This document shows positions 1 through 25,863 of a stretch of DNA of 64,000 nucleotides, in pieces; the stretch's first letter is position 1; every line of letters begins with the position of its first letter. The notes beneath the pieces were generated by a model, which saw only the letters and a program-made list of their open reading frames with translations, ran no database searches and was not told the DNA's origin. Where the stretch lies: assembly GCF_002205845.1 (NCBI RefSeq), contig NZ_NISI01000004.1, positions 124,001 to 188,000 of the forward strand. Reading direction: 5' to 3'. Origin of the DNA: Roseateles puraquae. Its GTDB lineage: Bacteria; Pseudomonadota; Gammaproteobacteria; Burkholderiales; Burkholderiaceae_C. A program made the position numbers and the translations under genes.

Positions 1-120
1 CGACTCGTCGGGGATGGCGGTCACGCGCAGCACCTGCTGTGCCTGCGCGACGGCGCCCGCCAGGGCGAGCGACGCCACCACACCACGCGCCAGACTGGCG
101 ACAACACGAGAAAGGGCCAT
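1..120 (-). CDS. Periplasmic substrate-binding protein of an ABC transporter (PhnD-like, possibly selenium oxyanion), 5' part only
   Basis: Only the first 40 codons are in the window; the gene runs off the left edge. They encode a Sec signal peptide (Arg at 5 and 12, a hydrophobic core, then AQAQQ as probable cleavage region) followed by VLRVTAIPDES, which resembles the mature N-terminus of PhnD-like periplasmic binding proteins. A good ribosome binding site, AGGAG, lies 8 bases before the ATG. It follows the DsrE gene by 33 bases on the same strand, so it is probably the next gene of the selenium cluster. From family knowledge, PhnD-like proteins include a group annotated as putative selenate binding proteins. 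That assignment here is inference from the neighbours, since 40 residues do not fix the substrate. Confidence 0.6.
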   Translation of the reverse strand, partial: MALSRVVASLARGVVASLALAGAVAQAQQVLRVTAIPDES

Positions 121-153
121 GATCAAGTCTCCTGAGGGAAGAACGGTGTCCGG

Positions 154-534
154 TCAGAACACCAGGGTGGCCCAGGCCGGATCAGCAGCCCGGGCAGCGA
201 ATTGCACCGCACCGCCATGCTGGCGGGCGGCAGGGATGAGGTCGGCATGCGTGAGGCCGTGAGCGGCCAACGCATCCGTACAGGCCAGGAAGCGCGCGCC
301 ATGGTCGAGGGCATCCTGCATCCAGCTGGCGATGGTCTTGTCGAAACGCGTGGACGCGCGCAGCGCGTCGGCCACGCCCGGCTGCAGCAACAACACCGAG
401 CGCGCCGTGAAGTAGACCTCCACCTGCAGCTCCAGAGCAGCGCCCGCCGCCGCCTGCGCGAACGGCGTGGCCAGACGCACCGGGTCCGCCGGGTCCGCAG
501 CCCACAACAAAATGGCCAGGCCCTGGCGCGACAT
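154..534 (-). CDS. DsrE-family protein with a single conserved-type cysteine
   Basis: The 126-residue protein has the size and pattern of the DsrE/DsrF fold: a hydrophobic first strand (LAILLWA), a second strand after an Ala-rich helix (LELQVEVYF), and the motif FLACTDALAAHGL. Its only cysteine, Cys85, lies in that motif. In the family this cysteine position carries persulfide in sulfur relay. The start codon overlaps the stop of the lipoyl-protein gene by 4 bases (ATGA), so the two are translationally coupled. Position directly downstream of selB-selC suggests a role in handling sulfur or selenium bound to cysteine; that is inference. There is no signal peptide, so it should be cytoplasmic. 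Confidence 0.75.
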   Translation of the reverse strand: MSRQGLAILLWAADPADPVRLATPFAQAAAGAALELQVEVYFTARSVLLLQPGVADALRASTRFDKTIASWMQDALDHGARFLACTDALAAHGLTHADLIPAARQHGGAVQFAARAADPAWATLVF

Positions 535-971
535 CAGGCACCTTCCAACTGGTTGAGCCAGGCCCAGCGCTGCATTGCGGCGCGGATGTTGGCCTCACCC
601 ACGACAAGCTGGGCGCGCTCCTCGTCCAGTCGCGCCGGCGCCAGCTCCAGCAACCAACCCGCCTCGTAGGGGGCCTGGTGCACCAACTCCGGCCGCTCCT
701 CCAGCGCTTCATTGACCCGCATGACCGTGCCCGACAACGGCGACTTCACCGACACGATGGACTTGGACAACTCCACCACACCCAGTGACCGCCCTTGCTC
801 GACCTCGCTGCCCACCGACTTCGGCCGGCACATGTAGATGTCCCCCGACGCCTTCAAGCCCAGCGCCGTGATCCCCACACGCACCCGCCCCCCATCCAGC
901 GGCATCGCCCAGGTCTGGTCGTCGATCCAGTACCAGAGATGCTCCGGCAGCTCGGCGCCCGCGATCAGCAT
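534..971 (-). CDS. GcvH-like lipoyl carrier protein in the selenium locus
   Basis: The 145-residue protein follows the plan of glycine cleavage H protein: WAMPLDGGRVRVGIT near residues 21-35, ASGDIYMCRP near 41-50, then VELSKSIVSVKSPLSG. Counting back from SPLSG, Lys70 aligns with the lipoylated lysine of GcvH (ESVKAASDIYAPVSG in E. coli). A Cys at 48 is notable. No gcvT or gcvP is nearby. The neighbours are selC upstream and a 4-base-overlapping dsrE gene downstream. GcvH-like proteins that do not serve glycine cleavage are known as sulfur carriers in sHdr-type systems, so this one may be a dedicated carrier. ATG at 971 was chosen because it begins the homologous region; the frame stays open upstream through the tRNA gene. 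Confidence 0.75.
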   Translation of the reverse strand: MLIAGAELPEHLWYWIDDQTWAMPLDGGRVRVGITALGLKASGDIYMCRPKSVGSEVEQGRSLGVVELSKSIVSVKSPLSGTVMRVNEALEERPELVHQAPYEAGWLLELAPARLDEERAQLVVGEANIRAAMQRWAWLNQLEGA

Positions 972-1100
972 GGCGCCCCCACGATGGTTCGGCCGGCGTC
1001 GCGAGCGGGCACAGGTTGGTTCGAGCACCGCAGCCGTACTGGCGTACGGCGAGGAGCGCAGGGCCAAGATGTGTCCGCGCAGTAGCCGGACGGGCCATCG

Positions 1101-1196
1101 TGGCGGAAAGAGGTAGGAGTCGAACCTACCCGGCAACGCATGGCGCCACCCACCGGGTTTGAAGCCCGGCCGACACACCGGTGTCGTTCTCTTTCC
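1101..1196 (-). tRNA. selC: Selenocysteine tRNA, tRNA-Sec (anticodon UCA)
   Basis: Read on the minus strand, the gene starts GGAAAGAG and ends CTCTTTCC-GCCA, giving an 8-bp acceptor stem plus discriminator G and an encoded CCA. The anticodon loop is CTTCAAA with a UCA anticodon. The T arm has GGTTCGACTCC. A long variable arm (GGTGGCGCCATGCGTTGCC region) and the total of 96 bases match the unusually long bacterial tRNA-Sec; E. coli selC is 95. It decodes the UGA in fdnG. Its 5' end is only 4 bases after the selB stop codon, so it is probably processed from the selB transcript. Confidence 0.96.
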
Positions 1197-1200
1197 ATGT

Positions 1201-3066
1201 TCAATGCTCCAGCGGCGCAAACAGCGCGCTGTCAGCCCGCAGCCGATGTTCATCGCCCACCCGGCGCAGCAGACCGACGCGGTCGAAATGCTCCAGGATC
1301 TGGATCGCACGCTTGCGGCCCAGGCCGGTCGCGTCGCGGAAGGCGGCCGCGGCCACATGCCCCTGTTCCGTCGCCAGGCGGCGCACTGTAGCCGCGAGTG
1401 CGGTCATCGTGGGCGTGTCCAGGTACAAGTCCTTCACGACCTGATGCAGATCGCCCTGCTGCGCCAGGCGCGCCAGCGTCGTGCGCATCAGAGGCTCAGG
1501 CTCGGCGCAGTCCTTGGCGAGGTCGCGCGCCCAGGCGCCTTCGGCCCCGGCTGCGGCCAGGCGAGGTGCGACCTTCTGCGCAATGCGCTGCTCGGTGGCC
1601 GACAGCTGAACGCCATGCACTGGCAAATGCACGAAGGCACCGCGCACCGCGACCTGTCCGCGGCCCCGCAGCTCGTTCAGCACCTGGCGCCACAGCGGCT
1701 CGGCCATGCGTGGCGACACGAGGCGGCGCAGCCGGGCCGCGTCAGGCCCGAGCTCGTCGGGTGACTTGGCGTGATAGTCGGCCAACGCGCCCAGCAGCCG
1801 ATGCGTCAGCGCCGCATGGGCCTCGTCACCCAGGGCCCAGCCCTGCAGCGGCTCGGCGAGGCCCTCGGCTTGCGCGAAGCGGGCGAGGTCCAGGCCGAGC
1901 TGGGACAGCACCAGCAGCCGTTCACGGCGGCGCGCCGTGGTGGGCAGCTCACAAGCCGCGAGCTCGTCGAGCCGCTCCGGCGTGCGGCGGTAGCGCGTGG
2001 GGGCAAACGGGTCCAGCACGATGCCGCCGGCCAGCGTGCGCGTGGCACCGGCGTCGCGCAGCACGAGGCGGTCGCCGCGCCAGGCGCCCACGGGGCCATG
2101 GCAGACCAGCTGCACGCGGGCCGCAGCGCCGGGCTCGATCAGGTCGCCATCCAGCACCGCCACGCTGGCCATGGTGCTCTGCGCGCCCAGGTGCAAGTGG
2201 ACCCGCGCGCCCGAGCGCAGCGGCCGGGCCTCGCCGGGCCATAGCTGCAGGCGGGCGTCGAAGCGGTCAGTGGCCAGGGCCACATGCGGCGCCGTGAGCC
2301 AGGCGCCCCGCGGTGCCTCGTCCTTGGCGATGCCCGCCAGCGCGACGGCACAGCGTTGGCCGGCCTGGGCGCGTTCAACCACACGGTTCTGGGCATGCAG
2401 GCTGCGCACCCGGGCGCGGCGCCCGGCCAGCACGAGTTCATCGCCTACGGCGATCTCGCCCGCATGCAGGGTGCCCGTCACGACCGTACCCACGCCATCG
2501 AGCGTGAAGGCGCGGTCCACCGCCAGGCGCGGGGCCAGGCCTTGCCACGCACGCGGCGGCATCTGACGAGCCGCGTTGAACAGCAGCTCCCGCAATGCCT
2601 CGACGCCCTGCCCGGTCTGCGCGCAGACCGCCACGATGGGTGCCTCGGCCAGGCCCGTACCGGCCAGGAGTTCACGCACCTCAGCCGTCAGGGACTCAAT
2701 GCGCCCGGGCTCCGCGCGGTCGGCCTTGGTGATCGCCACCGCGCCGCGCGTCAGGCCCAGCAGGCTCAACACCGCCAGGTGCTCGCGCGTCTGCGGCATG
2801 ACGCCGTCGTCCGCCGCCACGAGCAGCAGCCCGAAATCGATGCCGCTCGCGCCCGCCAGCATGGTGTGCACGAGCTTCTCGTGGCCGGGCACGTCGATGA
2901 AGCCCACGCGCTCCTTGGCGCCGGGCACGTCCAGGTAGGCGTAGCCCAGTTCGATGCTGATGCCGCGCGCCTTCTCCTCCGGCAGGCGGTCGGTGTCCAC
3001 GCCGGTCAAGGCGCGCACCAGGGTCGTCTTGCCGTGGTCGATGTGGCCAGCGGTACCGATGATCAT
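1201..3066 (-). CDS. selB: Selenocysteine-specific elongation factor SelB
   Basis: This 621-residue GTPase delivers Sec-tRNA(Sec) to a UGA codon by binding the SECIS hairpin in the mRNA. GTPase motifs are clear: GHIDHGKT (7-14), DVPGHE (58-63) and TKAD (113-116), with [13 protein letters not shown] as the SelB-type switch I. The middle has EF-Tu-like beta-barrel domains ([17 protein letters not shown]). The C-terminal third contains the winged-helix repeats that bind SECIS RNA ([24 protein letters not shown] near the end). Length is close to the 614 residues of E. coli SelB. The ATG at 3066 starts [13 protein letters not shown]. Longer upstream starts would run into the inverted repeat at 3095 and are unlikely. 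Confidence 0.97.
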
Positions 3067-3094
3067 GGCGTGGGCTCGCTCGCAAAGGACCGAG

Positions 3095-3166
3095 GCCACA
3101 GAGACACAGAGGCACACAGAGGCCGCGATGACGCGCAGCGCCTCTGTGCCTCTGTGTCTCTGTGGC
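3095..3166. repeat. Inverted repeat of the CACAGAG/CTCTGTG type between selA and selB
   Basis: Arms at 3095-3123 (GCCACAGAGACACAGAGG and onward) and 3140-3166 are near-perfect reverse complements, differing by one extra dinucleotide, with a loop of about 16 bases. The right arm continues into CTGTGTTC to about 3173. The element lies in the 121-base gap between the selA stop and the selB start. A second copy with the same core lies at 29136-29205. It would form a strong hairpin in the selA-selB transcript. No U-tract follows, so it is not a standard terminator. It is probably a dispersed intergenic palindrome. Confidence 0.85.
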
Positions 3167-3187: not shown

Positions 3188-4612
3188 TCACGCCAGTGCT
3201 TCCTTCAACGTCGTCAGCTGAGATGTCAGCAGCGCCGGCTCCTCCAGGCAGCGCAGATCGAGCAGCAGCCGGCCTTCGTGGATGCGGCCGATGACCGGGC
3301 GGGGCAGTTCGCGCAGCGTGGTGGCCAGCGCGTCGAGGGACCGGCCCCGACCGTCGGCCGGCGTCAGGGCCAGGCCGGCCGAGGGCAGGCGCTCCACCGG
3401 CAGTGAGCCCGATCCGATCTGGCTCTGCAGCGCCACCACCTCGACGCTGAACCGCGGCGCCACGGCCGCCGCCACTTCGGGCAGCAACTGTTGGGCGAGT
3501 GTGGCGATCTGGGACTGGGGCCGGGTCAGCAGGCGCAGCGTGGGCAGGTCCTGCACCAGGCGCTCGGGCCGCTGGTACAGGCGCAGCGTGGCCTCCAGGG
3601 CAGCGAACGGCAGCTTGGACAGGCGCAGCGCCCGCTTCATGGGGAACTTGCGAATACGGCCGATGGCCGCCTTGCTGCCGACGATGAGGCCGGCCTGCGG
3701 GCCGCCCAGCAGCTTGTCGCCGCTGAAGGTGACCACATCGCAGCCGGCGGCCAGCATGGCCTGAGGCAGCGGTTCGGCCGGCAGGCCCCATTTGGCGAGG
3801 TCGACCAGGGCTCCGCTGCCCAGGTCGGTCATCAACGGCACGCCACCGGCGCGCGCAATCGGCGCGAGCGTGGCTTCATCGACCGCAGCGGTGAAGCCCT
3901 GCACCGCGTAGTTGCTGGTGTGCACCTTCACGATGAGGCCGGTGCGCGGGCTGATGGCGCCCTCATAGTCACGCGGGTGCGTCCGGTTGGTGGTGCCCAC
4001 CTCCACGAGGGTGGCGCCCGCCGCGGCCATCACGTCGGGCATGCGGAAGGCGCCGCCAATCTCCACCAGCTCACCGCGCGACACGATGGCTTCCTTGCCC
4101 CGCGCGAGCGCTGCGATGCCGAGCAGCACCGCGGCGGCATTGTTGTTGACGACGGTGGCCGCCTCGGCGCCCGTGAGCTCGCACAGCAGCGACTCGATCA
4201 GGTCATCGCGATCGCCGCGGCCGCCGCTGTCGAGATCGAACTCGAGGTTGTTCGGCGCGCCGGTCAGGGCCAGCACCTGGGCCAGCGCCGCGTCGGCCAG
4301 CAGCGCGCGCCCGAGGTTGGTGTGGATGACCGTGCCCGTGAGGTTCAGCACCGCCCGCATGTTGGGCTGCATGCGCTGGCTCACGCGGGTGGCGAGGGAC
4401 TGCGGCAACAGGGCCAGCTCGGCCCGCGGCAGCTCGCCCGCCACGGCCCGGGCGCGCACGCCGTCCAGCAAGGCCCGCGCCTCACGCGCGACCAGCGTAT
4501 GACCATGCTCCGCCACCAAGGGCGCGCATTCGCGCAGCAGCTTGTCGAGGGCGGGCAGGTCCTTGGGGCTGGCCTTGGAACCGTGAACCACGGATTCGTC
4601 GGGCGTCGCCAT
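3188..4612 (-). CDS. selA: L-seryl-tRNA(Sec) selenium transferase SelA
   Basis: SelA is the pyridoxal-phosphate enzyme that converts seryl-tRNA(Sec) to selenocysteyl-tRNA(Sec) using selenophosphate. The 474-residue length is typical. The PLP-binding lysine is Lys300 in [14 protein letters not shown]. Other family blocks are [17 protein letters not shown] (87-103), [12 protein letters not shown] (154-165), [11 protein letters not shown] (206-215) and [11 protein letters not shown] (230-240). Its start overlaps the fdhE stop by 4 bases (ATGA), placing it in the formate dehydrogenase operon. No selD is visible in the window, so selenophosphate synthetase must be encoded elsewhere, perhaps beyond the left edge. 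Confidence 0.97.
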
Positions 4613-5619
4613 CAGTGGCCTCGACCGGGCGGTGGTGGCGCGTCTTCGGGTTCGCCGAAGAGCAGCAGCAGGTTCACCCCGTGGCGTTGCTGGCCCTCTT
4701 CGCTGACGAGCAGGTCGAGCGTCAGCGTGGCGAGATCGTCCGCCACCGGCTCGATGCCGTTGTCACGTGCGGGGTGCATCAGCTTCAGGTAGTGGCCGCA
4801 TTCGCTGCAGCACTCGGCCTGGACGGCCGGCTGGGTTTCGGCCGCGGCGGCGTCAGCGGCCACGAGGTTCTGCAGCGAGATGCCCTTGGTGCTCTGGCAG
4901 TGGCTGCACTTGATGCGCACGTAGTGCCATTGTGTGGCGCACAGGCCGCAGGCCAGGTAACGGGCACCGTCGGCACCCAACCGCTCGACCGAGGCCACCG
5001 GCCGCGAGGCGCAGCAGGGGCAGACGGTCGGGTCGTCGATGCGGCCGAAGGGTGCGAGCTGGCCGCCCGTGTGCGCCGCTGCCGTCTGCTGCGCGAGGCG
5101 AACCCAGTGCAGCTGCAGGCCCGCCGCCAGCAGCGGGGCTGCCGCCATGTCGAGCCCGAACATCACGCCGGTCAGCAGGCGCCCGGCTTGCGTCTCCAGG
5201 TGCTCGTCGCTGGCGTCAGCCAGTTGCCGCACCGTCGAGCGCGCCGGCCCTTCGGGCAGGTGGGCAGTCAGGTCTTGCAGCATCGAGCGCAGCGACTCGC
5301 GCCAGACTGCGGCACGGGGCCAGGTCTCGGCCGGCAACAACGGCAGGCCGGCGCTCGCAGCCGCCTCCACCTGCTCGGCCGTGGGCAGCGGCACGGCGAC
5401 ACCCGCCTTCAGCGCGCGGTGCTGGGCATCGGCCAGTTCCGCGGCGAAGAGCAGAAAGTCGCGCATCGCATGCCCCTCGGCGAGCTGGCGCAGGCGCACC
5501 GCCCGCGCGGCGAAAACGCCGGCATCGGGCAGGTGCAGGAAGGTCAGCTGTTCGCCCGCGCGAACCGCGATTTCTTCCGGGCTGAGGAGCTTCTGGGAGG
5601 TCGTCGTCGTGGAGGTCAC
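4612..5619 (-). CDS. fdhE: Formate dehydrogenase maturation protein FdhE
   Basis: FdhE is a cytoplasmic accessory protein needed for active respiratory formate dehydrogenase; in E. coli it is a rubredoxin-like iron protein that binds the catalytic subunit. The 335-residue product has the expected C-terminal cysteine pairs: CPCC (200-203), CGLC (224-227), CSHC (238-241) and CCSEC (270-274). The N-terminal half is helical. The gene sits between the structural genes and selA, overlapping both neighbours by 4 bases. The Pro/Gly-rich C-terminus (PPPPGRGH) is probably just a tail. Confidence 0.95.
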   Translation of the reverse strand: MTSTTTTSQKLLSPEEIAVRAGEQLTFLHLPDAGVFAARAVRLRQLAEGHAMRDFLLFAAELADAQHRALKAGVAVPLPTAEQVEAAASAGLPLLPAETWPRAAVWRESLRSMLQDLTAHLPEGPARSTVRQLADASDEHLETQAGRLLTGVMFGLDMAAAPLLAAGLQLHWVRLAQQTAAAHTGGQLAPFGRIDDPTVCPCCASRPVASVERLGADGARYLACGLCATQWHYVRIKCSHCQSTKGISLQNLVAADAAAAETQPAVQAECCSECGHYLKLMHPARDNGIEPVADDLATLTLDLLVSEEGQQRHGVNLLLLFGEPEDAPPPPGRGH

Positions 5620-6239
5620 TGCTTGCCTGTCATCTCACGGTGCCACAGCGCGTGGTTCTGGCGCGCCCAGGCTTCGGTGACCGTGCCGCGCGTCATGGCG
5701 CGCACGGTGCCCTTGACCCAGATGGCCGCATACACGTGCATGATGACACCGAGGACCAGGGCCACCGCGCTGGCCGCGTGCAGCACCACCGCGATCCGGC
5801 GCAGCAGGATCGGGAAGCTGTTGGCGAACCAGGGTTGCCAGAACATCACGCCGGTGATCAGCAGCACCGCGAGGCACACGCTCATCAGCCAGAACACGCC
5901 CTTCTGGCCGGCGTTGTACTTGCCGACCGGTGGCAAGGCCGCCTTGTCGCCACGCAGCATGTCGCCGCTCTTGGCCACCCATTCACGGTCAGCCGGCACG
6001 AACACGTTCTCGCGCCAGAGGCGGAAGAACATGACCGCGAAGGCCAGCACCATGGCCACCCCGAAGAAGGGGTGCAGGATGCGGGTCCAGACGCCACCGC
6101 CGAACAGGCTGCTGAAGAAGTACAGGCTCGGGTGGAAGAAGGCCAGGCCAGACAGGCCGGCGAGCACGAACAGGAGCGCAATGAGCCAGTGGTTCATGCG
6201 GTCCCGGTCTTCATAGCGACGCAGGTATCGAGTTGCCAT
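5616..6239 (-). CDS. fdnI: Formate dehydrogenase gamma subunit (cytochrome b)
   Basis: This 207-residue integral membrane subunit takes electrons from the beta subunit to quinone through two b hemes. Four hydrophobic segments are visible: LIALLFVLAGLSGLAFF, FFGVAMVLAFAVMFF, GVFWLMSVCLAVLLITGVMFW and VLHAASAVALVLGVIMHVYAAIW. Histidines suitable as heme ligands lie at the start of the first segment (MNHW) and in the second and fourth (LHPFFG, LHAAS, MHVYAAIW). The C-terminus WARQNHALWHRE is family-typical. It starts 11 bases after the fdnH stop and overlaps fdhE by 4. It could equally be named fdoI, since the fdn and fdo types cannot be told apart here. Confidence 0.94.
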   Translation of the reverse strand: MATRYLRRYEDRDRMNHWLIALLFVLAGLSGLAFFHPSLYFFSSLFGGGVWTRILHPFFGVAMVLAFAVMFFRLWRENVFVPADREWVAKSGDMLRGDKAALPPVGKYNAGQKGVFWLMSVCLAVLLITGVMFWQPWFANSFPILLRRIAVVLHAASAVALVLGVIMHVYAAIWVKGTVRAMTRGTVTEAWARQNHALWHREMTGKQ

Positions 6240-6250
6240 GTCGTGCTCCT

Positions 6251-7144
6251 TCAGGCGTCGGCCTTGTTGTCGACCTTGTCGTCGGTCTCGTCCTTGGTCT
6301 CGACCGGGCCGACCTTCATGTAGTGGAAGAAGCCGGCAACGGCCGCCCCCACCATCGCCGCCACGGCCAGCGGCTTGGCGGCGCCCTTCCACAGCGACAC
6401 CCACGGGCTGATCTTGGGATCAGCCGGCAGGCCGTGGTAGAGCTCAGGCTTGTCCGCATGCTGCAGCACGTAAACGACGTGGGTGCCGCCGACGCCTTGC
6501 GGGTCATAGACGCCCGCGTTGGCATAGCCGCGGTCCTTCAGGTCGGTCACGCGCTCGGCGCCGTAGTCGAGCATGTCTTCCTTGGTGCCGAAACGGATGG
6601 CGCCCGTGGGGCAGGCCTTGGCGCAAGCCGGCTCCAGGCCCACACCGACGCGGTCGGAGCACAGCGAGCACTTGTAGGCCTTGTTGTCGACCTTGGACAG
6701 TCGCGGCACATCGAACGGGCAGCCCGTCACGCAGTTGCCGCAGCCCACGCAGTGCTCCGAGATGAAGTCCACGATGCCGTTCGTGTATTTCACGATGGCG
6801 CCGGGGGCCGGGCAGCTCTTCAGGCAGCCCGGGTCGTCGCAGTGCATGCAGCCGTCCTTGCGGATCAGCCACTCGAGCTTGTCCTTTTCGACTTCGACCT
6901 CCGAGTAGCGCATGACCGTCCAGCTTTGCGGTGTCAGGTCACGCGGGTTGTCGTAGGTGCCATGGGTTTCGCCCACCTCGTCACGGAGGTCGTTCCACTG
7001 CATGCACGCGACCTGGCAGGCCTTGCAGCCGATGCAGGAGGACACGTCAATGAGCTTGGCGACCTCGATGGTCTTGCGCGCTTGCGGCGGGTTGGTGGTC
7101 GTCGCGGAGCGCTTGGCGATGTCTAGCGATTGGAGTGAAGACAT
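6251..7144 (-). CDS. fdnH: Formate dehydrogenase beta subunit (four [4Fe-4S] clusters)
   Basis: The 297-residue electron-transfer subunit links the catalytic subunit to the membrane cytochrome b. Four ferredoxin-type cysteine sets are present: [42 protein letters not shown] and [11 protein letters not shown]...[12 protein letters not shown]-terminal transmembrane helix ([18 protein letters not shown], about 265-282) anchors it, followed by a short charged tail. The order G-H-I with 9 and 11 base gaps matches the E. coli fdn and fdo operons. As in those enzymes it has no signal peptide of its own and should be exported together with the Tat-carrying alpha subunit. Confidence 0.96.
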
Positions 7145-7153
7145 GGGCGCTCC

Positions 7154-10100
7154 TTATGCCTTCTCGAGGTTGACGGTGAAGCTCTTGAACTCGGGCGTCT
7201 GCGTGTTCGCGTCGCCCACGAAGGGGGTCAGCGTGTTCACGAGATACCCGGGCTTGGCCACCCCGACAAAACCCCAGTGGTTGGGCAGGCCCACGGTGTG
7301 CACGCGCTTGCCGTCCACATCCAGCGACGCGATGCGCTTGCTGACCACGGCCACGGCCTTGATGAAGCCGCGGTTGCTGCTCACCTTGACCCAGTCGCCA
7401 TTGGCAACGCCCTTCTCCTTGGCAAGCTCCTCGCCGATCTCGACGAACTGCTGCGGCTGCACGACAGCCGACGTGCGCACGTTCTTCGTCCAGTAGTGGA
7501 AGTGCTCCGTCAGGCGGTAGCTGGTGGCCACGTACGGGAAGTCCTTGGCCGTGCCGAAGGCCTCCATGTCGCCCTTGAACACGCGGGCGGCCGGATTGCT
7601 CTTGGCCTTGGCGTTCTTCGGGTGCATGGGGTTGGCCTCGAGCGGCGTCTCGAAGGGCTCGTAGTGCTCGGGCAGCGGGCCGTCGACCATGCCGGTGGGC
7701 GCGAACAGGCGAGCCACGCCCTCGGCGGTCATGATGAACGGGCGCACCGCGTCGGCATCCGTCGGGTTGGCATCCGGGCGGATGTCGGGCACGTCGGAGC
7801 CGCCCCACTTCTCGCCGTTCCAGGCCACGAGGCGGCGCTTGGCGTTCCAGGGCTTGCCGTTCGGGTCGCAGGACGCGGCGTTGTAGAGCACGCGGCGGTT
7901 CGCCGGCCAGGCCCAGGCCCAGTTCAGCGTCTGGCCGATGCCGAACGGGTCGCTGTTGTCGCGGCGAGCCATCTGGTTGCCGGCCTGCGTCCAGGCGCCG
8001 GAATAGATCCAGCAGCCGCAGGACGTGGAGCCGTCATCGCGCAACTGGCCGAAGCCGGCAAGCTGGTCGCCCGCCTTCACCAGCACCTTGGTCGGGTCCT
8101 TGGGGTCGGTGACGTCGGCCAGCGCCTTGCCGTTGTATTCCTTGGCCAGCTCTTCGGGCGATGGGTTGTGCGGCTGGGCGTAGTTCCAGGTCAGGTTGAG
8201 GATGGGGTCCGGGAAGGCACCGCCGTCCTTCACGTAGGCCGCCTTCATGCGGGTGAAGATCTCGGCAATGATTTCCGGGTCGCCCTTGGCCTCGCCCGGA
8301 GGCTCGGCGCCCTTCCAGTGCCACTGCAGCCAGCGGCCGGAGTTGGTCAGCGACCCCTCCTCCTCGGCGAAGCAGGTGCTCGGGAAGCGGAACACCGTCG
8401 TCTGGATCTCCTCGCTCTTCACGTCGTTGTGCTCGCCGTAGTTCTTCCAGAACTCGGCGGTCTCGGTGATGAGCGGATCGATGATGACGAGGTACTTGAG
8501 CTTGGACAGGCCCGCGACGATCTTCTTCTTGTTGGGGAAGGAGCCGACCGGGTTGAAGCCCTGGCAGATGTAGCCGTTGAGCTTGCCCTGGTTCATCAGC
8601 TCGAAGGCCTGCAGCACGTCATAGGCCTTGTCCCACTTCGGCAGGTAGTGGTAGGCCCAGCTGTTCTCGGCGGTCGCCGCCTTGCCCCACCACGCCTTTT
8701 GATGGCTGACGAAGAACTTGGGGTAGTTCTGCCAGAAGCTCATCTGGTTGGGACGCAGTGGCTTGACGGCGCGGGGCTTGTAGTAGGTCTCCAGGTCCTG
8801 CTCGGTCTCGCGCGGCAGGCTCATGTAGCCCGTCATGGAGGTGGAGAGCAGCCCCAGGTCCGTGAGGCCCTGGATGTTGGAGTGGCCACGCAGCGCGTTC
8901 ATGCCGCCACCTGGCAGGCCGATGTTGCCCAGCAGCAGCTGCATGATCGCGCCGGTGCGGATCATCTGCGAGCCCTGGCTGTGCTGCGTCCAGCCGAGCG
9001 CGTACATGATGGTCATGACGCGGTTGGGCTTGGACGTCTCGGCGATCATCTCGCACACCTTCAGGAACTTGTCCTTCGGCGTGCCGGTGATCTTGCTGAC
9101 CTGCTCGGGCGTGTAGCGGGCGTAGTGCGCCTTCATCACGTTGAGCACGCAGCGCGGGTGCTGCAGGGTCGGGTCGACCTTGGCAAAGCCCTTGTCGTCG
9201 AGCTCGTAACCCCAGCTCTTGTTGTCGTAGCGGCGCTTGCTTTCGTCGTAGCCGCTGAACAGGCCGTCCTCGAACTTGTAGTCCTCGCCGACGATGAAGC
9301 TGGCGTTGGTGTAGTTCTTGACGTACTCGTGCTGGATCTTGTCGTTGGACAAGAGGTAGTTGATGACGCCGCCCAGGAAGGCGATGTCAGAGCCCGCGCG
9401 GATGGGCGCGTAGTAGTCGCTCATCGCAGCCGAGCGCGTGAAGCGCGGGTCGACCACGACCAGCTTGGCCTTGTTGTGATGCTTGGCTTCGATGACCCAC
9501 TTGAAACCGCAGGGGTGGGCCTCGGCGGCATTGCCACCCATGATGAGCACGAGATCGGCGTTCTTGATGTCCACCCAATGGTTGGTCATCGCACCGCGCC
9601 CAAACGTCGGGGCCAGACTGGCCACCGTCGGGGCGTGTCAAACGCGCGCCTGGTTGTCGAAGACCAGCATCCCCATCGACCGCATCGCCTTGTGGGTGAT
9701 GTAACCCGACTCGTTGGACGATGCGCTCGCGCAGAGCATGCCGGTGGTCAGCCAGCGATTGACGGTCTTGCCGTCGGCCGTGGTGGCTTGGAAGTTGGCG
9801 TCGCGGTCAGCCTTCATCAGCTTGACCAGGCGATCCATCGCCTCGTCCCAGCTGACCCGCTTCCATTCCTTGCTGCCGGGCTCGCGGATCTCGGGGAACT
9901 TCAGCCGGTTGGGGCTGTGCACGAAGTCCAGCAGGCCGGCGCCCTTGGGGCAGAGCGTGCCACGGTTGACCGGGTGATCCGGGTCACCTTCGATGTGGAT
10001 GATGGACGAGGTGACGTTTTTCGCCTTGTCGCCCAGCGAGTACATGATGATGCCGCAGCCCACCGAGCAATACGGGCAGGTGTTGCGGGTTTCTGTCGCC

Positions 10101-10225
10101 CGGGAGAGCTTGAAGTTGCGTGCCTCGGCGAGAGCCGCCGTTGGCGAAAACCCCAAGGCCACGAGGCTGGATGCTGCCAGCCCTGCGCCGCTCACCCGGA
10201 AGAACTGCCTCCGGTTCATGTCCAT
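7154..10225 (-). CDS. fdnG: Formate dehydrogenase alpha subunit, selenoprotein (Sec at codon 196)
   Basis: This catalytic subunit oxidises formate with bis-MGD molybdenum or tungsten, one [4Fe-4S] cluster and selenocysteine. Reading through TGA at 9640-9638 gives 1023 residues. The sequence around it, DNQARV-U-HAPTVASLAPTF, matches E. coli FdnG, where Sec is also residue 196. The N-terminus has a Tat signal (NRRQFFRVSG then a hydrophobic stretch ending AALA). The cluster ligands are CPYCSVGC and LCPKGAG. RBS GGAG lies 9 bases before ATG 10225; a second ATG two codons later is possible. A standard gene caller would split this into 196- and 823-residue pieces. It heads the operon and is followed by fdnH after 9 bases. 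Confidence 0.96.
9601..9640 (-). promoter_or_regulatory. Bacterial SECIS element directing Sec insertion at UGA
   Basis: Immediately 3' of the in-frame TGA (9640-9638) on the minus strand, the coding sequence folds into a hairpin. The apical part GGCCAGTCTGGCC (9623-9611) is a 5-bp stem with a GTC loop, containing the GUCU seen in the loop of E. coli fdnG and fdhF SECIS elements. Flanking bases CCCCGACG and CCCCGACGTT can extend the lower stem only imperfectly. The apical stem starts 14 bases after the UGA, close to the E. coli spacing. SelB, encoded in the same operon, is the expected binder. Confidence 0.85.
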
Positions 10226-10413
10226 GGATATCGTCTCCTGGGGCCCAACGCCCCGTCGAACTTCGATAGGTGTCGCCGGCACGCGGCAGCACACGGGATT
10301 TCTCCACAATCGACCGGGCTTGTCCAATAGGGATTTGGCCGCCCCGGCGATAGGGTCGGGAATGTTCAGGCGTCAGGATGACGTCAGCTTCCCACCACCC
10401 CCTAATTCAGGGC

Positions 10414-19448: not shown

Positions 19449-21254
19449 CTACTTCTTGCGCACCGGCGGCACGTCCGTGCAGGAGCCATGGGCCACCTCG
19501 GCCGCCATGCCCAGGCTTTCGCCGAGCGTCGGGTGCGGGTGGATGGTCTTGCCGATGTCGACCGCATCGGCGCCCATCTCGATGGCCAGCGCGATCTCGC
19601 CGATCATGTCGCCGGCATGCGTGCCGACGATGCCGCCGCCGATGATGCGGTGGCTTTCCTCGTCGAAGATCAGCTTGGTGAAGCCCTCGTCGCGGCCATT
19701 GGCGATGGCGCGGCCTGAAGCCGTCCACGGGAACAGGCCCTTGGTGATCTTGATGCCCTTGGCCTTGGCCTCGTCCTCGGTCATGCCTACCCAGGCGACC
19801 TCGGGATCGGTGTAGGCCACGCTCGGGATCACGCGGGCGTCGAACTGGCTCTTGGCCAGCTTGTCGTCGCCCAGCAGTTCGCCGGCGCAGACTTCCGCCG
19901 CCACGTGGCCCTCGTGCACCGCCTTGTGGGCCAGCATCGGTTGGCCGACGATGTCGCCGATGGCAAAGACGCTGGGCACGTTGGTGCGCATCTGCACGTC
20001 CACCGGGATGAAGCCGCGGTCGGACACCGCCACGCCGGCGTTCTCGGCGCCGATCTTCTTGCCGTTGGGCGTGCGGCCCACCGCTTGCAGCACGAGGTCG
20101 TAGCGCTGGGGCTCCTTCGGGGCGCCCTCGCCCTCGAAGGTCACGTAGATGCCGTCCGGCTTGGCTTCGGCCGCCACCGTCTTCGTGTTCAACAGGATGT
20201 TGTCGAAGCGGTGCTGGTTGAACCTCTGCCAGACCTTGACCAGGTCACGGTCGGCACCGGTCATCAGCGTGGGCAGCATCTCCACCACATCCAAGCGGGC
20301 GCCCAGCGTGGAATACACCGTGCCCATCTCCAGGCCGATGATGCCGCCGCCGACGATCAGCATCTTCTGCGGCTTGACCTGCATCTCCAGCGCGCCGGTC
20401 GAGTCGACGATGCGCGGGTCTTGAGGCAGAAAAGGCAGGCGCACGGCCTGCGAACCCGCCGCGATGATGAGGCGCTTGTAGGCCACCGTCTGCACCGCGC
20501 CCGTCTTGGCCTGGCCGACCGCGCCCTCCGTGGCTTCCACCTTCAGGTGCTGGGCGTCCAGCACGGTGCCCACGCCGCGCAGCACGGTGACCTTGCGCAT
20601 CTTGGCCATGGCGGCCAGGCCGCCGGTCAGCTTGCCCGTGACCTTGTTCTTGTGGGCGCGGAGCTTGTCGATGTCCACGGTCGGCTCGCCGAAGGCCACA
20701 CCCAGGTCGGCCATGTGGCTCACCTCGTCCATCACCGCCGCCACATGCAGGAGCGCCTTGGACGGGATGCAACCGACGTTCAGGCAGACGCCGCCGAGCG
20801 TCGCATAACGCTCGACCAGGGCGACCTTCAGGCCGAGGTCGGCCGCGCGGAAGGCGGCCGAGTAGCCGCCGGGGCCGCCGCCGAGCACGACGAGGTCGAA
20901 GGCCTGGTCGGCGCTGCCGGTGTAGGTCGCGGCCGCAGGCGCCGCCACCGGGGCCGGGGCAGGTGCTGCGGGTGCAGGCGCCGGGGCAGCCGCGGCAGGT
21001 GCCGGTGCAGCCGCCGCATCGGCCTCCACGGTCAGGATGACCGAGCCCTTGCTGACCTTGTCGCCCAGCTTGACCTTGAGCTCCTTGACCACGCCGGCTG
21101 CCGACGACGGGATCTCCATCGAGGCCTTGTCGCTCTCGACGGTGATCAGGCTCTGCTCGACCTTGACGGTGTCGCCGGCCTTGACCAGCACCTCGATGAC
21201 GCCGACTTCGTCGAAGTCGCCGATGTCCGGAACTTGAACTTCAATGAGTGCCAT
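19449..21254 (-). CDS. lpdA: Dihydrolipoyl dehydrogenase (E3) with N-terminal lipoyl domain
   Basis: This 601-residue E3 subunit reoxidises the lipoyl groups of pyruvate dehydrogenase with FAD and NAD+. Residues 1-80 are a lipoyl domain with Lys43 in VESDKASME. An Ala/Pro linker (about 80-115) follows, then the E3 core: FAD motif VLGGGPGGY (123-131), redox pair Cys157/Cys162 in [13 protein letters not shown], and the catalytic HPHPTLGE near the C-terminus. A lipoyl domain on E3 is unlike E. coli but is known from Ralstonia/Cupriavidus PdhL. It follows aceF after 15 bases and ends the operon. Confidence 0.96.
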
Positions 21255-21269
21255 GAGTTCAGCCTCCGA

Positions 21270-22937
21270 TCACAAGGCGATGCGGCGGAAGTCCGCCAGC
21301 AGCGACGCGAAGTAGACGTTGAAGCGGGCGGCCGCTGCCCCGTCGATGACGCGGTGGTCCCAGGAGAGCGACAGCGGCAGGATCAGGCGCGGCACGAATT
21401 GCTTGCCGTCCCACACCGGCTCGGTGCTGCTCTTGCACACACCCATGATGGCCACTTCGGGCGCATTGATGATGGGCGTGAAGTACTTGCCGCCGATGCC
21501 GCCAAGCGACGAGATGGAGAAGCAGCCGCCGCTCATGTCGGCCGGCGCGAGCTTGCCGTCGCGCGCCTTCTTGGCCAGCTCCGACATCTCCTGGCTGATC
21601 TGGAAGATGCCCTTCTTGTCGGCGTCCTTGATGACCGGCACGACCAGGCCATTGGGCGTGTCTGCCGCGAAGCCGATGTGGAAGTAGTTCTTCAGCACCA
21701 GCGTGTCGCCGTCCAGCGAGCTGTTGAACTCGGGGAACTTCTTCAGCGCGGCCACTGCCGCCTTGATCATGAACGCGAGCATCGTGACCTTGATGCCGGC
21801 CTTCTCGTTTTCCTTGTTCAGCTGGACGCGGAAGGCTTCGAGTTCGGTGATGTCGGCATCGTCGTGGTTGGTGACGTGCGGGATCACGACCCAGTTGCGA
21901 TGCAGGTTGGCGCCCGAGATCTTCTTGATGCGGGACAGCTCCTTGCGCTCGACGGGGCCGAACTTCTCGAAGTCGACCTTGGGCCAGGCCAGGAGGTTCA
22001 GGCCCGCACCGCCGCCGCCAGCGGCAGCAGCCGGCGCGGCGGCCTTCTGAGCCGCCGTCTGCACGGCACCGGCCATGACGGCCTTCACGAAGCCCTGCAC
22101 GTCGGTCTCGGTGATGCGGCCCTTGGGGCCGCTGCCCTTGACCTCGGCCAGCGGCACGCCCAGCTCGCGGGCGAGCTTGCGGATGCTGGGCGAGGCATGC
22201 GGCAACTGGCCGGTCGGCGCGGTGGGCTGGTGAGCCGGCAGCGCGGCAGCAGGTGCTGCGGCCTGGGTCGGCGCGGCGGCGACCGGTGCCGACGCGGCGG
22301 CCACCGGCGCTGCGGCAGCAGGTGCGGGCGCGGCGGGCGCAGGTGCGGCAGCGCCACCGGCCGCCTTCACGCGAGCCAGGGCCGTGCCCTTGGCGACCTT
22401 GTCGCCCAGCTTGACCAGCAGTTCCTCGACGACACCCGCGGTCGACGACGGGATCTCCATCGAGGCCTTGTCGCTCTCGACGGTGATGAGGCTCTGCTCA
22501 ACCTTGACGGTGTCGCCCACCTTCACGAGGACCTCGATGACGGCGACCTCGTCGAAGTCACCGATGTCGGGCACTTCGACGGTGACCGAGCCGCCCGCCG
22601 ACGGTGCCGCCGCCGGAGCAGGGGCCGGCTCGGCGGCGGGCGCCGGGGCGGCCGCTGCGGGCGCAGGAGCCGCCGCCACCGGGGCTGGCGCCGCAGCGCC
22701 TTCGGCCTCCACCAGCACCAGCAGGCTGCCTTCCTTGACCTTGTCGCCCACGGCGACCTTGATCTCCTTGACCACGCCAGCGGTGGACGAGGGAATCTCC
22801 ATCGAGGCCTTGTCGCTCTCCACGGTCACGAGGCTTTGCTCGACCTTGACCGTGTCGCCGACCTTGACCAGCACCTCGATGACGCCGACCTCGTCGAAAT
22901 CGCCGATGTCGGGAACCTTGACTTCAACCAATGCCAT
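21270..22937 (-). CDS. aceF: Pyruvate dehydrogenase E2, dihydrolipoyl acetyltransferase
   Basis: This 555-residue E2 core transfers acetyl groups from E1 to CoA. It has two lipoyl domains with lysines 43 and 157 in ESDKASME, each followed by a long Ala/Pro linker. An E3/E1-binding domain follows ([17 protein letters not shown], about 245-285). The catalytic domain has its active-site His528 in [14 protein letters not shown] 22937 was chosen because it starts the lipoyl domain and has GGGAGA 8 bases upstream; a longer open frame exists but overlaps aceE. It lies between aceE and lpdA. Confidence 0.97.
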
Positions 22938-22956
22938 TTGTTGTCTCCCCCGGCGC

Positions 22957-25668
22957 TCAGGCGTAGAGCGGGTTGATCTTGTTCGCGTCGATGCCGTACT
23001 TGGCAATCGCCTCGGCCACCTTCTCCGCCGGGATCGCCCCGTCGTCGGCCAGCGCCTTGAGCGCGGCGACCACGATGTAGTGGCGGTTCACCTCGAAGTG
23101 CTGGCGCAGCTTGGAGCGGAAGTCGCTCCGCCCGAAGCCGTCGGTGCCCAGCACCTTGTACGAGCGGTCCTTGGGCACGAAGGCGCGGATCTGCTCCGCA
23201 TAGTTCTTCATGTAGTCGGTGGACGCGATGACCGGGCCCTTGGTCTGGCCGAGCTGCTGCGTCACGAAGGGCACGCAGGCGAGTTCGGTCGGGTGCAGCA
23301 GGTTCCAGCGCTCGGCGTTCTGGCCGTCGCGGGCCAGCTCGTTGAAGCTCGGGCAGCTCCACACGTGGGCACCCACGCCCCAGTCTTCTTCCAGCAGCAT
23401 CTTGGCCACCTGGCTCTCGCGCAGGATGGTGCCCGAGCCCAGCAGGTTGACCGTGACCGGCTTGCTCGCATCCGCCTCTTCCAGCAGGTACATGCCCTTG
23501 AGGATCTGCTCCTCGGTACCGGCCTTCAGGCCCGGCATCGGGTAGTTCTCGTTGAGCAGGGTGATGTAGTAGAAGACGTTCTCCTGGTCTTCCACCATGC
23601 GCTTCAGGCCCCGGTGCATGATGACCGCCACTTCGTGCGCGAAGGTCGGGTCGTAGGAGATGCAGTTCGGGATGGTGCCGGCCAGGATGTGGCTGTGGCC
23701 GTCCTCGTGCTGCAGGCCTTCGCCGTTCAGCGTGGTGCGGCCCGAGGTGCCGCCGAGCAGGAAGCCGCGCGCCTGCATGTCGCCCGCCGCCCAGGCCAGG
23801 TCGCCGATGCGCTGGAAGCCGAACATCGAGTAGTAGACGTAGAACGGGATCATGATCCGGTTGTTCGTCGAGTAGCTCGTGGCGGCTGCGATCCAGCTGG
23901 CCATGCCGCCGGCTTCGTTGATGCCCTCCTGCAGGATCTGGCCGGCCTTGTCTTCGCGGTAGTACATCACCTGGTCCTTGTCGACCGGGGTGTAGAGCTG
24001 GCCCTTGGGGTTGTAGATGCCGATCTGGCGGAACAGGCCTTCCATGCCGAAAGTGCGGGCCTCGTCCACGAGGATGGGCACCACGCGCGGGCCGATGTCC
24101 TTGTCGCGCAGCAGCTGCGTCAGGAAGCGCACATAGGCCTGGGTCGTCGAGATCTCACGACCTTCGGCGGTCGGGTCGAGGATGGCCTGGAAGGTGGCGA
24201 GATCCGGCGTCTTGAATTGCTCGTCCGCCTTGGCGCGGCGGCTGGGCAGGTAGCCCCCCAGGGCCTGGCGGCGCTCGTGCAGGTAGCGCATCTCCGGCGT
24301 GTCGTCGGCCGGCTTGTAGTACGGGATCTTGGGCAGCTCGCTGTCCGGCACCGGGATGTTGAAGCGGTCGCGGATGTACTTGATGTCGTCGTCGGTCAGC
24401 TTCTTGGTCTGGTGAACGGTGTTCTTGCCCTCACCGGCCTTGCCCATGCCGTAGCCCTTGACGGTCTTGACCAGCAGCACGGTCGGCTGGCCCGTCGTGT
24501 TGTGGTGGGCCGCGTGGAACGCGGCATAGACCTTCTCGGGCTCATGGCCGCCGCGGCGCAGATCGAAGATCTCGTCGTCGGTCATGTGAGCCACCAGCTT
24601 GGCGGTCTCGGGGTACTTGCCGAAGAAGTGCTTGCGGACGTAGGCGCCGTCGTTGGCCTTCATGGCCTGGTAGTCGCCGTCCAGCGTTTCCATCATCAGC
24701 TGCTTGAGCTTGCCGCTCTTGTCGCGGGCGAGCAGTTCGTCCCAGCCCTTGCCCCAGATCAGCTTGATGACGTTCCAGCCGCTGCCGCGGAACTCGCCTT
24801 CGAGCTCCTGGATGATCTTGCCGTTGCCGCGCACCGGGCCGTCCAGCCGCTGCAGGTTGCAGTTGACGACGAAGACGAGGTTGTCCAGCCCTTCGCGCGC
24901 GGCGAGGGCGATGGCGCCCAGGCTCTCGGGCTCGTCCATCTCGCCGTCGCCCATGAAGGCCCAGACCTTGCGGTTCTCGGTGTTGGCGATGCCGCGGGCG
25001 TGCAGGTACTTCAGGAAGCGCGCCTGGTAGATGGCCATCAGCGGGCCCAGGCCCATGGACACCGTCGGGAACTGCCAGAAGTTGGGCATCAGCTTCGGAT
25101 GCGGGTAGCTGGACAGGCCCTTGCCGTCGACTTCCTGGCGGAAGTTGTCGAGCTGCTCCTCCGTCAGCCGGCCTTCCAGGAAGGCGCGGGCGTAGATGCC
25201 AGGCGCGCTGTGGCCCTGGATGTAGAGGCAGTCGCCCCCGTGGTTCTCGCTCTCGGCGTGCCAGAAGTGGTTGAAGCCGGCGCCAAGCATCGAGGCCAGC
25301 GACGCAAACGAGCCGATGTGGCCGCCCAGGTCGCCGCCATCCGCCGGGTTCAGGCGGTTGGCGCGCACGACCATGGCCATGGCGTTCCAGCGCATGTAGG
25401 CGCGCAGGCGCTTCTCGATCTGGATGTTGCCGGGGCAGCGCGCCTCGGCCGACGGCTCGATGGTGTTGACGTAGCCGGTGGTGGCCGAGAACGGCAGGTC
25501 GATGCTGTGCTGGCGGGCGTGCTCCAGCATCTCCTCGATCAGGAAGTGGGCGCGCTCGGCGCCTTCACGGTCGATGACGGCGGACAGCGCGTCCAGCCAC
25601 TCCTTGGTTTCCTGGGGGTCAGCGTCGTTCGAAGCGGCGCCTAGAAAGTGTTGCGGCTGGGCGGACAT
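22957..25668 (-). CDS. aceE: Pyruvate dehydrogenase E1 component (homodimeric type)
   Basis: The 903-residue thiamine-diphosphate enzyme decarboxylates pyruvate and reductively acetylates E2. Characteristic blocks are [22 protein letters not shown], the TPP motif [12 protein letters not shown]...[16 protein letters not shown], and [22 protein letters not shown]. Length is close to the 887 residues of E. coli AceE. ATG 25668 has AGGAG 8 bases upstream. It is the first gene of the aceE-aceF-lpdA operon and is divergent from a sensor kinase, with 195 bases between. Confidence 0.97.
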
Positions 25669-25863
25669 GGCCGGTCTCCTGGTGATTTCGCCTCTGTCGG
25701 GCGGAAGTCGCTGTTCAACAAGCGGGGGCAAACCGCGGGCCAAACCCGCGAGCGGGCGGAGTGTCTCATAAGCCGCCGCGTTTCCCAAATGGTGCGAAGT
25801 CGTTTCTTAATGCGAAATCAGAAGCCGCGCGAGCCGTCAAGCACCCCCGGATAATCCGCGCCC

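Follow-up and report, generated by a model that had tools for sequence, protein, structure and literature searches.

A lipoyl carrier and DsrE-family gene pair beside selC in Roseateles puraquae is a candidate accessory module for selenocysteine-containing formate dehydrogenase

At the start of the window analysed here, a stretch of 64,000 nucleotides from Roseateles puraquae (assembly GCF_002205845.1, contig NZ_NISI01000004.1, positions 124,001 to 188,000), two small genes encoding a lipoyl carrier and a DsrE-family protein lie beside selC, the gene for the selenocysteine tRNA (tRNA-Sec), in a locus for a selenocysteine (Sec)-containing formate dehydrogenase (FDH). Window and contig together give the order fdnG, fdnH, fdnI, fdhE, selA, selB, selC, lipoyl carrier, DsrE and binding protein, all on the minus strand. 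The gene of the FDH alpha subunit, fdnG (7154..10327), encodes molybdopterin domains, scores 1494 bits with TIGR01553 and contains as its single in-frame TGA the Sec codon at 9640-9638; a whole-genome TIGR01553 search likewise returned one TGA. It is followed by fdnH for the iron-sulfur beta subunit (6251..7144; TIGR01582, 447 bits, cut-off 334.7), fdnI for the cytochrome b gamma subunit (5616..6404; TIGR01583, 166 bits, cut-off 115.85) and fdhE for an FDH accessory protein (4612..5619; TIGR01562, 222 bits, cut-off 187.65). The Sec machinery comprises selA for selenocysteine synthase (3188..4612; TIGR00474, 562 bits, cut-off 267.9), selB for the Sec elongation factor (1201..3117; TIGR00475, 447 bits, cut-off 242.25) and selC with the anticodon tca (1101..1196; ARAGORN). 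The limits given for fdnI and selB are those of the longest open reading frame (ORF), within which the real start of each gene probably lies.

Beyond selC lie the gene of the lipoyl carrier (534..971), a protein of 145 amino acids (aa) and the GcvH fold with its lipoyl lysine at position 70 (Lys70; PF01597 (GCV_H), 91.9 bits, cut-off 22.2, 3.6e-26), and that of the DsrE-family protein (154..534), with 126 aa and Cys85 (PF02635, 29.3 bits, cut-off 22.7, 1.1e-06). These coordinates and both residues had been given correctly in an earlier note on this DNA, which had also described the two genes as coupled by ATGA; the sequence is instead TGATG, the DsrE start codon sitting inside the stop codon of the carrier with an overlap of 1 base, and an overlap of 4 bases occurs in several congeners. 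No sigma-70-like promoter site was found in a scan of window positions 1-1400. The window holds only the start of the binding-protein gene (1..120), the rest of which lies beyond its edge (ORF of 291 aa at L048:11251-12126, L and G numbers being labels of examined loci and genomes, respectively; TIGR04553, 401.4 bits, cut-off 250).

The lipoyl carrier has Lys70 within VVELSKSIVSVKSPLSG, and the corresponding lysine is present in 134/134 aligned carriers of all groups, GcvH and LbpA included; Lys70 is presumably lipoylated. Its AlphaFold model (pLDDT 92) shows the H-protein fold, with 3hgb as the top Foldseek match in the PDB (E 2e-13), while the curated GcvH models are not reached (TIGR00527, 73.6 vs 115.85; PRK01202, 91.1 vs 117). 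The earlier note had pointed out that none of the glycine cleavage genes is nearby, and indeed an ordinary second GcvH of this genome is encoded on another contig (L296), with gcvT (544 bits) on one side and gcvP (1428 bits) on the other. Since gcvT-gcvH-gcvP sits elsewhere in the genome, the lipoyl carrier described here does not represent the H protein of glycine cleavage. Cys48 of the carrier was considered as a universal second thiol and rejected, being present in 68/81 main-clade rows and in 0/15 rows from the other three sel/FDH groups. The DsrE protein holds a single cysteine, Cys85, and a cysteine occupies this site in 132/133 aligned rows, the remaining row having a gap. In its AlphaFold model (pLDDT 91.5) the protein adopts the DsrE fold, the best Foldseek match being 3mc3 (E 7e-07), with 2hy5_B at 9e-04; Cys85 aligns with a cysteine of 3mc3 and a cysteine of 1l1s, and the cysteine thus matched is what we take to be the active-site cysteine of DsrE/TusD. 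No ORF was matched by both models, as a natural fusion of the two proteins would be.

The association of the two genes with each other and with selenium genes recurs across genomes. In a set of 60 relatives, this genome included, the pair was found in 13, always in the order selB-selC-lipoyl-DsrE (13/13), and all 13 carry selA, compared to 29/60 overall. A pattern scan with one genome per species (84,980 species) yielded 113 DsrE relatives, and among the best 80 of these, kept as named loci, a lipoyl gene was present in 76, tRNA-Sec in 73, selB in 72, selA in 65 and fdhE in 63, counts that are lowered by flanks of at most 8 kb and by contig ends. Examples of strains with the locus are Roseateles saccharophilus DSM 654 (L075) and Hydrogenophaga palleronii (L097). 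The lipoyl and DsrE genes share a strand in 76/76 loci, and six loci (L135, L137, L138, L139, L142 and L145) have the pair in inverted orientation with respect to selC, which it nevertheless adjoins. For five of the seven loci without tRNA-Sec (L129, L141, L144, L147 and L148, as opposed to L126 and L127), selA was detected elsewhere in the genome; the genome of L144 is metagenome-assembled, and its label Bordetella parapertussis may be wrong. Altogether, selA was found in 11/15 genomes checked, and L100 and L133, with no selA detected, carry selB and tRNA-Sec in the locus. The recurring order and the association with tRNA-Sec are not due to chance. In the samples searched the pair family is restricted to Burkholderiales-type genomes: in a search of 398 genomes of the phylum for a spread beyond Burkholderiales, only 12 gave a match at E<=1e-8, two of them being this genome and G299, and no sel locus was recognised among six of the loci L273-L279 (without L277); of the weak matches L280-L283, the reading covered L280 and L282. 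By eye, L273, L276 and L279 resemble loci of the sHdr system.

The selenium-gene link proposed in the earlier note proved strong and specific when a sample of 399 genomes of the order was analysed. In this sample selA scored over its cut-off in 108 genomes, and the sel/FDH-type pair was found in 21, all of them with selA (21/21; Fisher p 2.6e-13, kinship ignored), a count that is partly circular because locus context helped to define the 21 genomes. An internal control was provided by the sHdr-type lipoyl-DsrE pair (assigned by coordinates), which occurs with selA in 9/26 genomes (p 0.37) and is accompanied by HdrB- and HdrC-like genes in 7/7 control loci examined (L061, L220, L221, L223, L224, L315 and L316). 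Homologs of the pair are thus not equally common in genomes without selenium genes. Set against the partial circularity, a DsrE tree computed with long-branch warnings separates the 42 rows from sel/FDH loci from 17 solo and 14 other DsrE proteins by a branch supported at 100/99. A related solo DsrE family (MMLLTIDPD...) stands in an unrelated context, beside a large gene with a membrane-sensor-like beginning (L184, L193, L196, L198 and L212). A re-check of further loci placed no DsrE in the sel group except that of a partial pair in G390, and left the DsrE of G037 unplaced.

The lipoyl carriers likewise form separate groups in a tree of 77 rows, for which 24 of the 81 main-clade rows were used: GcvH (100/100), an sHdr group (78/93) and, among the carriers of sel/FDH loci, a main sel group (97/94), two more sel groups (100/97 each) and an FDH-linked group of four rows (100/100). 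The tree test is compatible with one common origin for all of the sel/FDH carriers (p-AU 0.37). The residue following the lipoyl lysine is W in 21/21 sHdr rows, A in 15/17 GcvH rows and, for the most part, S, A or T in the sel rows. In a scan of 114 sel/FDH pair loci, with flanks mostly of 8 kb and with some places fetched twice, genes for HdrB-, HdrC- and lipoate-ligase-like proteins were found in none (0/114), compared to 9, 9 and 15, respectively, of the other 22 loci. The possibility that the pair is a remnant of an sHdr system was ruled out by these neighbouring genes and by both trees. The earlier note had also treated the lipoyl carrier and the DsrE protein as belonging together, which the analysis bears out, and their relatives in sHdr loci back its comparison with sulfur carriers.

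Several observations suggest that the module looks tied to the assembly of Sec-containing FDH rather than to selenium metabolism at large. First, in five genomes the pair lies after fdhE while selA-selB-selC are found elsewhere without it (L144/G434, L148/G435, L182/G384, L190/G298 and L197/G204); one gene separates fdhE and the pair in L190 and L197, and a lipoyl gene stands between fdhE and selA in L202 and L262. Second, FDH alpha was searched for (cut-off E<=1e-100) in 80 of the 108 selA-bearing genomes, namely the 21 with the pair and 59 of the 87 without it, and was detected in 21/21 of the former vs 35/59 of the latter (p 1.8e-4, kinship ignored). Each of the 21 pair genomes has an FDH alpha with one in-frame TGA, present in G065 as a fragment only. 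Conversely, the sel/FDH-type pair is absent from all 24 tested selA-bearing genomes without FDH alpha. Nine of these 24 have some DsrE match, which in eight (G045, G081, G090, G094, G135, G238, G246 and G268) is nearest to the hdr/other DsrE group; in the ninth, G037, the DsrE is distant, has no lipoyl gene in its locus and lies beside ABC genes like those of L141. G166, a congener of G384, G298 and G204, carries selA and has neither an FDH alpha over the cut-off nor a DsrE match. The catalytic site could be read in ten FdnG-like rows. It holds TGA in nine of them, eight from pair loci and one (L067) from a pair-less congener; the tenth, L209, has Cys there, is 26% identical and represents a different enzyme, encoded in an sHdr locus. 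Third, no selD was found in the 114 pair loci or near the pair in this genome. Finally, a gene for a TupB-like tungstate permease (E below 1e-40) lies within about 6 kb of the pair in 10/80 named loci and in L182, L190 and L202; most Tup-bearing loci also have TupA/TupC and some ModA, the strand is not always shared, and the Tup models stay below curated cut-offs in L144, while ModA lies above one in L202 (316 vs 264). Selenium could nevertheless be the cargo, as most hosts may have FDH as their main selenoprotein.

Based on these results, we propose, with a probability of about one half, that the pair is a dedicated, non-essential accessory module for an active Sec-containing respiratory FDH, in which the lipoyl carrier and the DsrE protein would act as a chalcogen relay. 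The genes are real, the folds, the conserved lysine and cysteine, and the pairing were computed, and so were the restriction to Sec-FDH in the samples and the staying of the pair with fdhE; the lipoylation, the persulfide relay, its cargo and its recipient are what we infer. In such a relay Cys85 of the DsrE protein would take up a chalcogen atom as persulfide (or perselenide), a step suggested by analogy because of what is known of DsrE/TusD and LbpA, and the atom would be exchanged between Cys85 and the lipoyl dithiol that the carrier bears on Lys70. The carrier would then hand the reduced chalcogen to the FDH assembly line, delivering either sulfur for the molybdenum/tungsten (Mo/W) cofactor, at the step of FdhD, or selenium for the Sec machinery. 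That lipoic acid acts in this way as a swinging arm, within a chalcogen relay of two proteins dedicated to a selenoenzyme, and brings sulfur or selenium into Sec-FDH is a more tentative suggestion, to which we would give somewhat less than even odds.

A number of observations weigh against this proposal. Five of 16 selA-bearing congeners lack the pair; the four of these included in a SelA+FdnH+FdhE tree (15 loci) are not grouped there, so that at least 3 changes are needed, and 35 of the 59 tested pair-less selA-bearing genomes have FDH alpha. FdhD scores over its cut-off in this genome, and the sulfur step thus already has a catalyst. In G118 the pair lies by the sel genes and selC while FDH is about 22 kb from selA, and G438 (L141), which has selA and a lone DsrE gene, gave no match for FDH alpha above the cut-off. 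The DsrE gene also occurs without a lipoyl gene in L117, L126, L127 (a 3.7-kb contig) and L141, although the genome of L117 has one elsewhere, between fdhE and selA (L262); in the genomes of L126 and L127 no selA was detected. Furthermore, G390, a 22nd genome with selA, which stands outside the count of 21 and the FDH test, has only a partial copy of the pair beside tRNA-Sec. This copy (L297, approximately 8264-9373) lies beside tRNA-Sec and an FdnG fragment and is decayed, frameshifted or divergent.

Because pair-less genomes carry FDH alpha and pair-less congeners are scattered, the pair is not required for Sec-FDH in general, and it is dispensable and non-essential. In three of the four pair-less congener loci read, the gene after selC is that of the binding protein or of the nitroreductase, and in G017 the contig ends in selB. 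Replacement of FdhD by the pair was ruled out, as FdhD is present in this genome and in 52/60 genomes of the relatives set (E<=0.001, this genome included; over the cut-off in 35/60). With FdhD present, a sulfur role of the pair would therefore consist of supplying or boosting FdhD.

An unlikely alternative, raised in the earlier note, is a selenium relay to SelD, in which the lipoyl dithiol and Cys85 would carry selenide or perselenide and the binding protein would import a selenium compound. It would explain why tRNA-Sec is found in 73/80 loci and adjoins the pair even in the six with an inversion, the strict co-occurrence with selA, and the detection by tblastn of a binding-protein relative in 21/80 loci, the copy at the window being a TIGR04553 member. 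The lack of selD around the pair speaks against this delivery route, as do the five genomes in which the pair lies near fdhE, apart from the sel genes, and the 24 selA-bearing genomes that have neither FDH alpha nor the pair.

Lipoyl arms are redox dithiols, and an arm recharged by a reductase could reduce oxidised Sec or persulfides in an FDH that meets oxygen, with DsrE as an adaptor. The patchy presence of the pair in close relatives would fit such conditional protection, and a gene for a nitroreductase-family flavoprotein follows the pair or the binding protein at L048:10613-11395 and in 38/80 named loci. The nitroreductase, however, is no known disulfide reductase and is also encoded in the pair-less congener loci L065, L067 and L068, and a cysteine at the DsrE site in each of the 132 rows without a gap suggests persulfide transfer over disulfide reduction; we therefore consider redox repair rather improbable. 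A regulator or sensor of selenium or sulfur status, or a scaffold for FDH, in place of a carrier, has still poorer prospects: both proteins are small and dispensable and have no recognised enzyme active site beyond one lysine and one cysteine, but a domain scan revealed no DNA-binding domain in either of them, and the lysine and cysteine are conserved in all rows with a letter. Accidental hitch-hiking of a duplicate GcvH and a general DsrE, conceivable inasmuch as both folds are common, is already disfavoured to the point of being very improbable by the distinct tree groups, by the strict co-occurrence with its matched negative control, and by the pair remaining beside selC where it is inverted and near fdhE where it is relocated.

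Among the neighbouring genes, the binding protein matches TIGR04553, the NCBI family 'putative selenate ABC transporter substrate-binding protein', a hypoth_equivalog whose name is a hypothesis; a proposed selenium link of this protein is thus already in NCBIfam. On the contig it is followed by a nitroreductase-family gene (PRK10828, 94 bits, below the cut-off of 183) and then by a urease gamma gene. In contrast to congeners, where ATPase and permease genes come after the binding protein (L052, L053, L057 and L067; PhnC/PhnE-like, those of L053 having been scanned), the TIGR04553 gene of this genome has no adjoining ATPase or permeases. This genome has two selD genes on two contigs (L263:5515-9078 and L264:3107-9132), and ABC genes like those of the congeners adjoin selD in L263 (scanned) and lie about 2.4 kb from it in L264. 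This arrangement would fit selenium import as a putative function. The E. coli gene ydjA, a relative of the nitroreductase gene, presumably also lies beside selD. At two pair-less sel loci a gene for a pyridine nucleotide-disulfide oxidoreductase stands between selB and selC (L255:1634-2542, by sequence likeness; L257:12242-13162, by Pfam). A DsrE-like gene without a lipoyl gene lies by a phosphonate-type binding protein and ABC genes in L141:7875-11800 and L314:8497-11859, both with selA and without FDH alpha over the cut-off. Within the window, positions 19449-25788 hold pyruvate dehydrogenase genes, including one for a dihydrolipoyl dehydrogenase that itself carries a lipoyl domain at its N terminus (ORF sequences, by eye). 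According to two reviews, no high-affinity transport system specific for selenium has been identified (PMC9312934, PMC13188914).

In the literature searched, which includes few subscription journals and is thus weak evidence, we found no description of such a pair, of GcvH and DsrE together with selenium, or of a lipoate-binding protein together with FDH and selenocysteine. Both kinds of protein are known, and their joint attachment to Sec-FDH appears to be new. The safe delivery of selenide and the supply of the sulfur ligand of Mo/W in FDH are incompletely understood, and a pair confined, in the genomes searched, to carriers of Sec-FDH offers a concrete, deletable candidate. If the pair is truly a relay, lipoate would serve in more than 2-oxoacid dehydrogenases, the glycine cleavage system and sulfur oxidation by sHdr, and the module may aid active FDH expression for the conversion of CO2 and formate.

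Compared to known systems, the lipoyl carrier resembles GcvH in fold and lipoyl lysine, but gcvT and gcvP do not adjoin it, it scores below the curated cut-offs, and it stands apart from the 17 GcvH rows (100/100). Like LbpA and DsrE of sHdr, the pair combines a lipoyl carrier of the GcvH fold and, encoded alongside it, a sulfurtransferase of the DsrE family. LbpA has been proposed, in an excerpt of one report, to carry sulfur on lipoate, dihydrolipoate accepting sulfane sulfur in vitro (PMC6067878). However, sHdr-type homologs in our samples have HdrB-like, HdrC-like and lipoate-ligase genes in their loci, none of which was found in the 114 sel/FDH pair loci; unlike LbpA, the carrier mostly has S, A or T and not W after the lysine, belongs to separate tree groups and is tied to Sec-FDH, not to sulfur oxidation. 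The partner genes dsrF and dsrH of a DsrEFH/TusBCD complex were not found in the window's locus, the only one searched for them, where the neighbours are selC, the binding protein, the nitroreductase and urease. YedF/FdhU is a two-domain TusA-DsrE protein of selenium metabolism, with an N-terminal TusA/SirA domain and a CGXC motif in its DsrE domain, and thus shares with the DsrE protein described here a DsrE-like domain and a selenium context. In Campylobacter this DsrE-domain protein is reported, in excerpts of two papers, to take part in the biogenesis of the selenium-dependent FDH (PMC5322559, PMC4178425), for which a TupABC-like tungstate transporter is also named (PMC4178425); going by these excerpts, FdhU/YedF of Campylobacter is the nearest functional precedent. 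The DsrE protein of the pair differs from it in being a 126-aa single domain without TusA/SirA, in having ACTD and not CGXC, and in having a lipoyl carrier as its partner.

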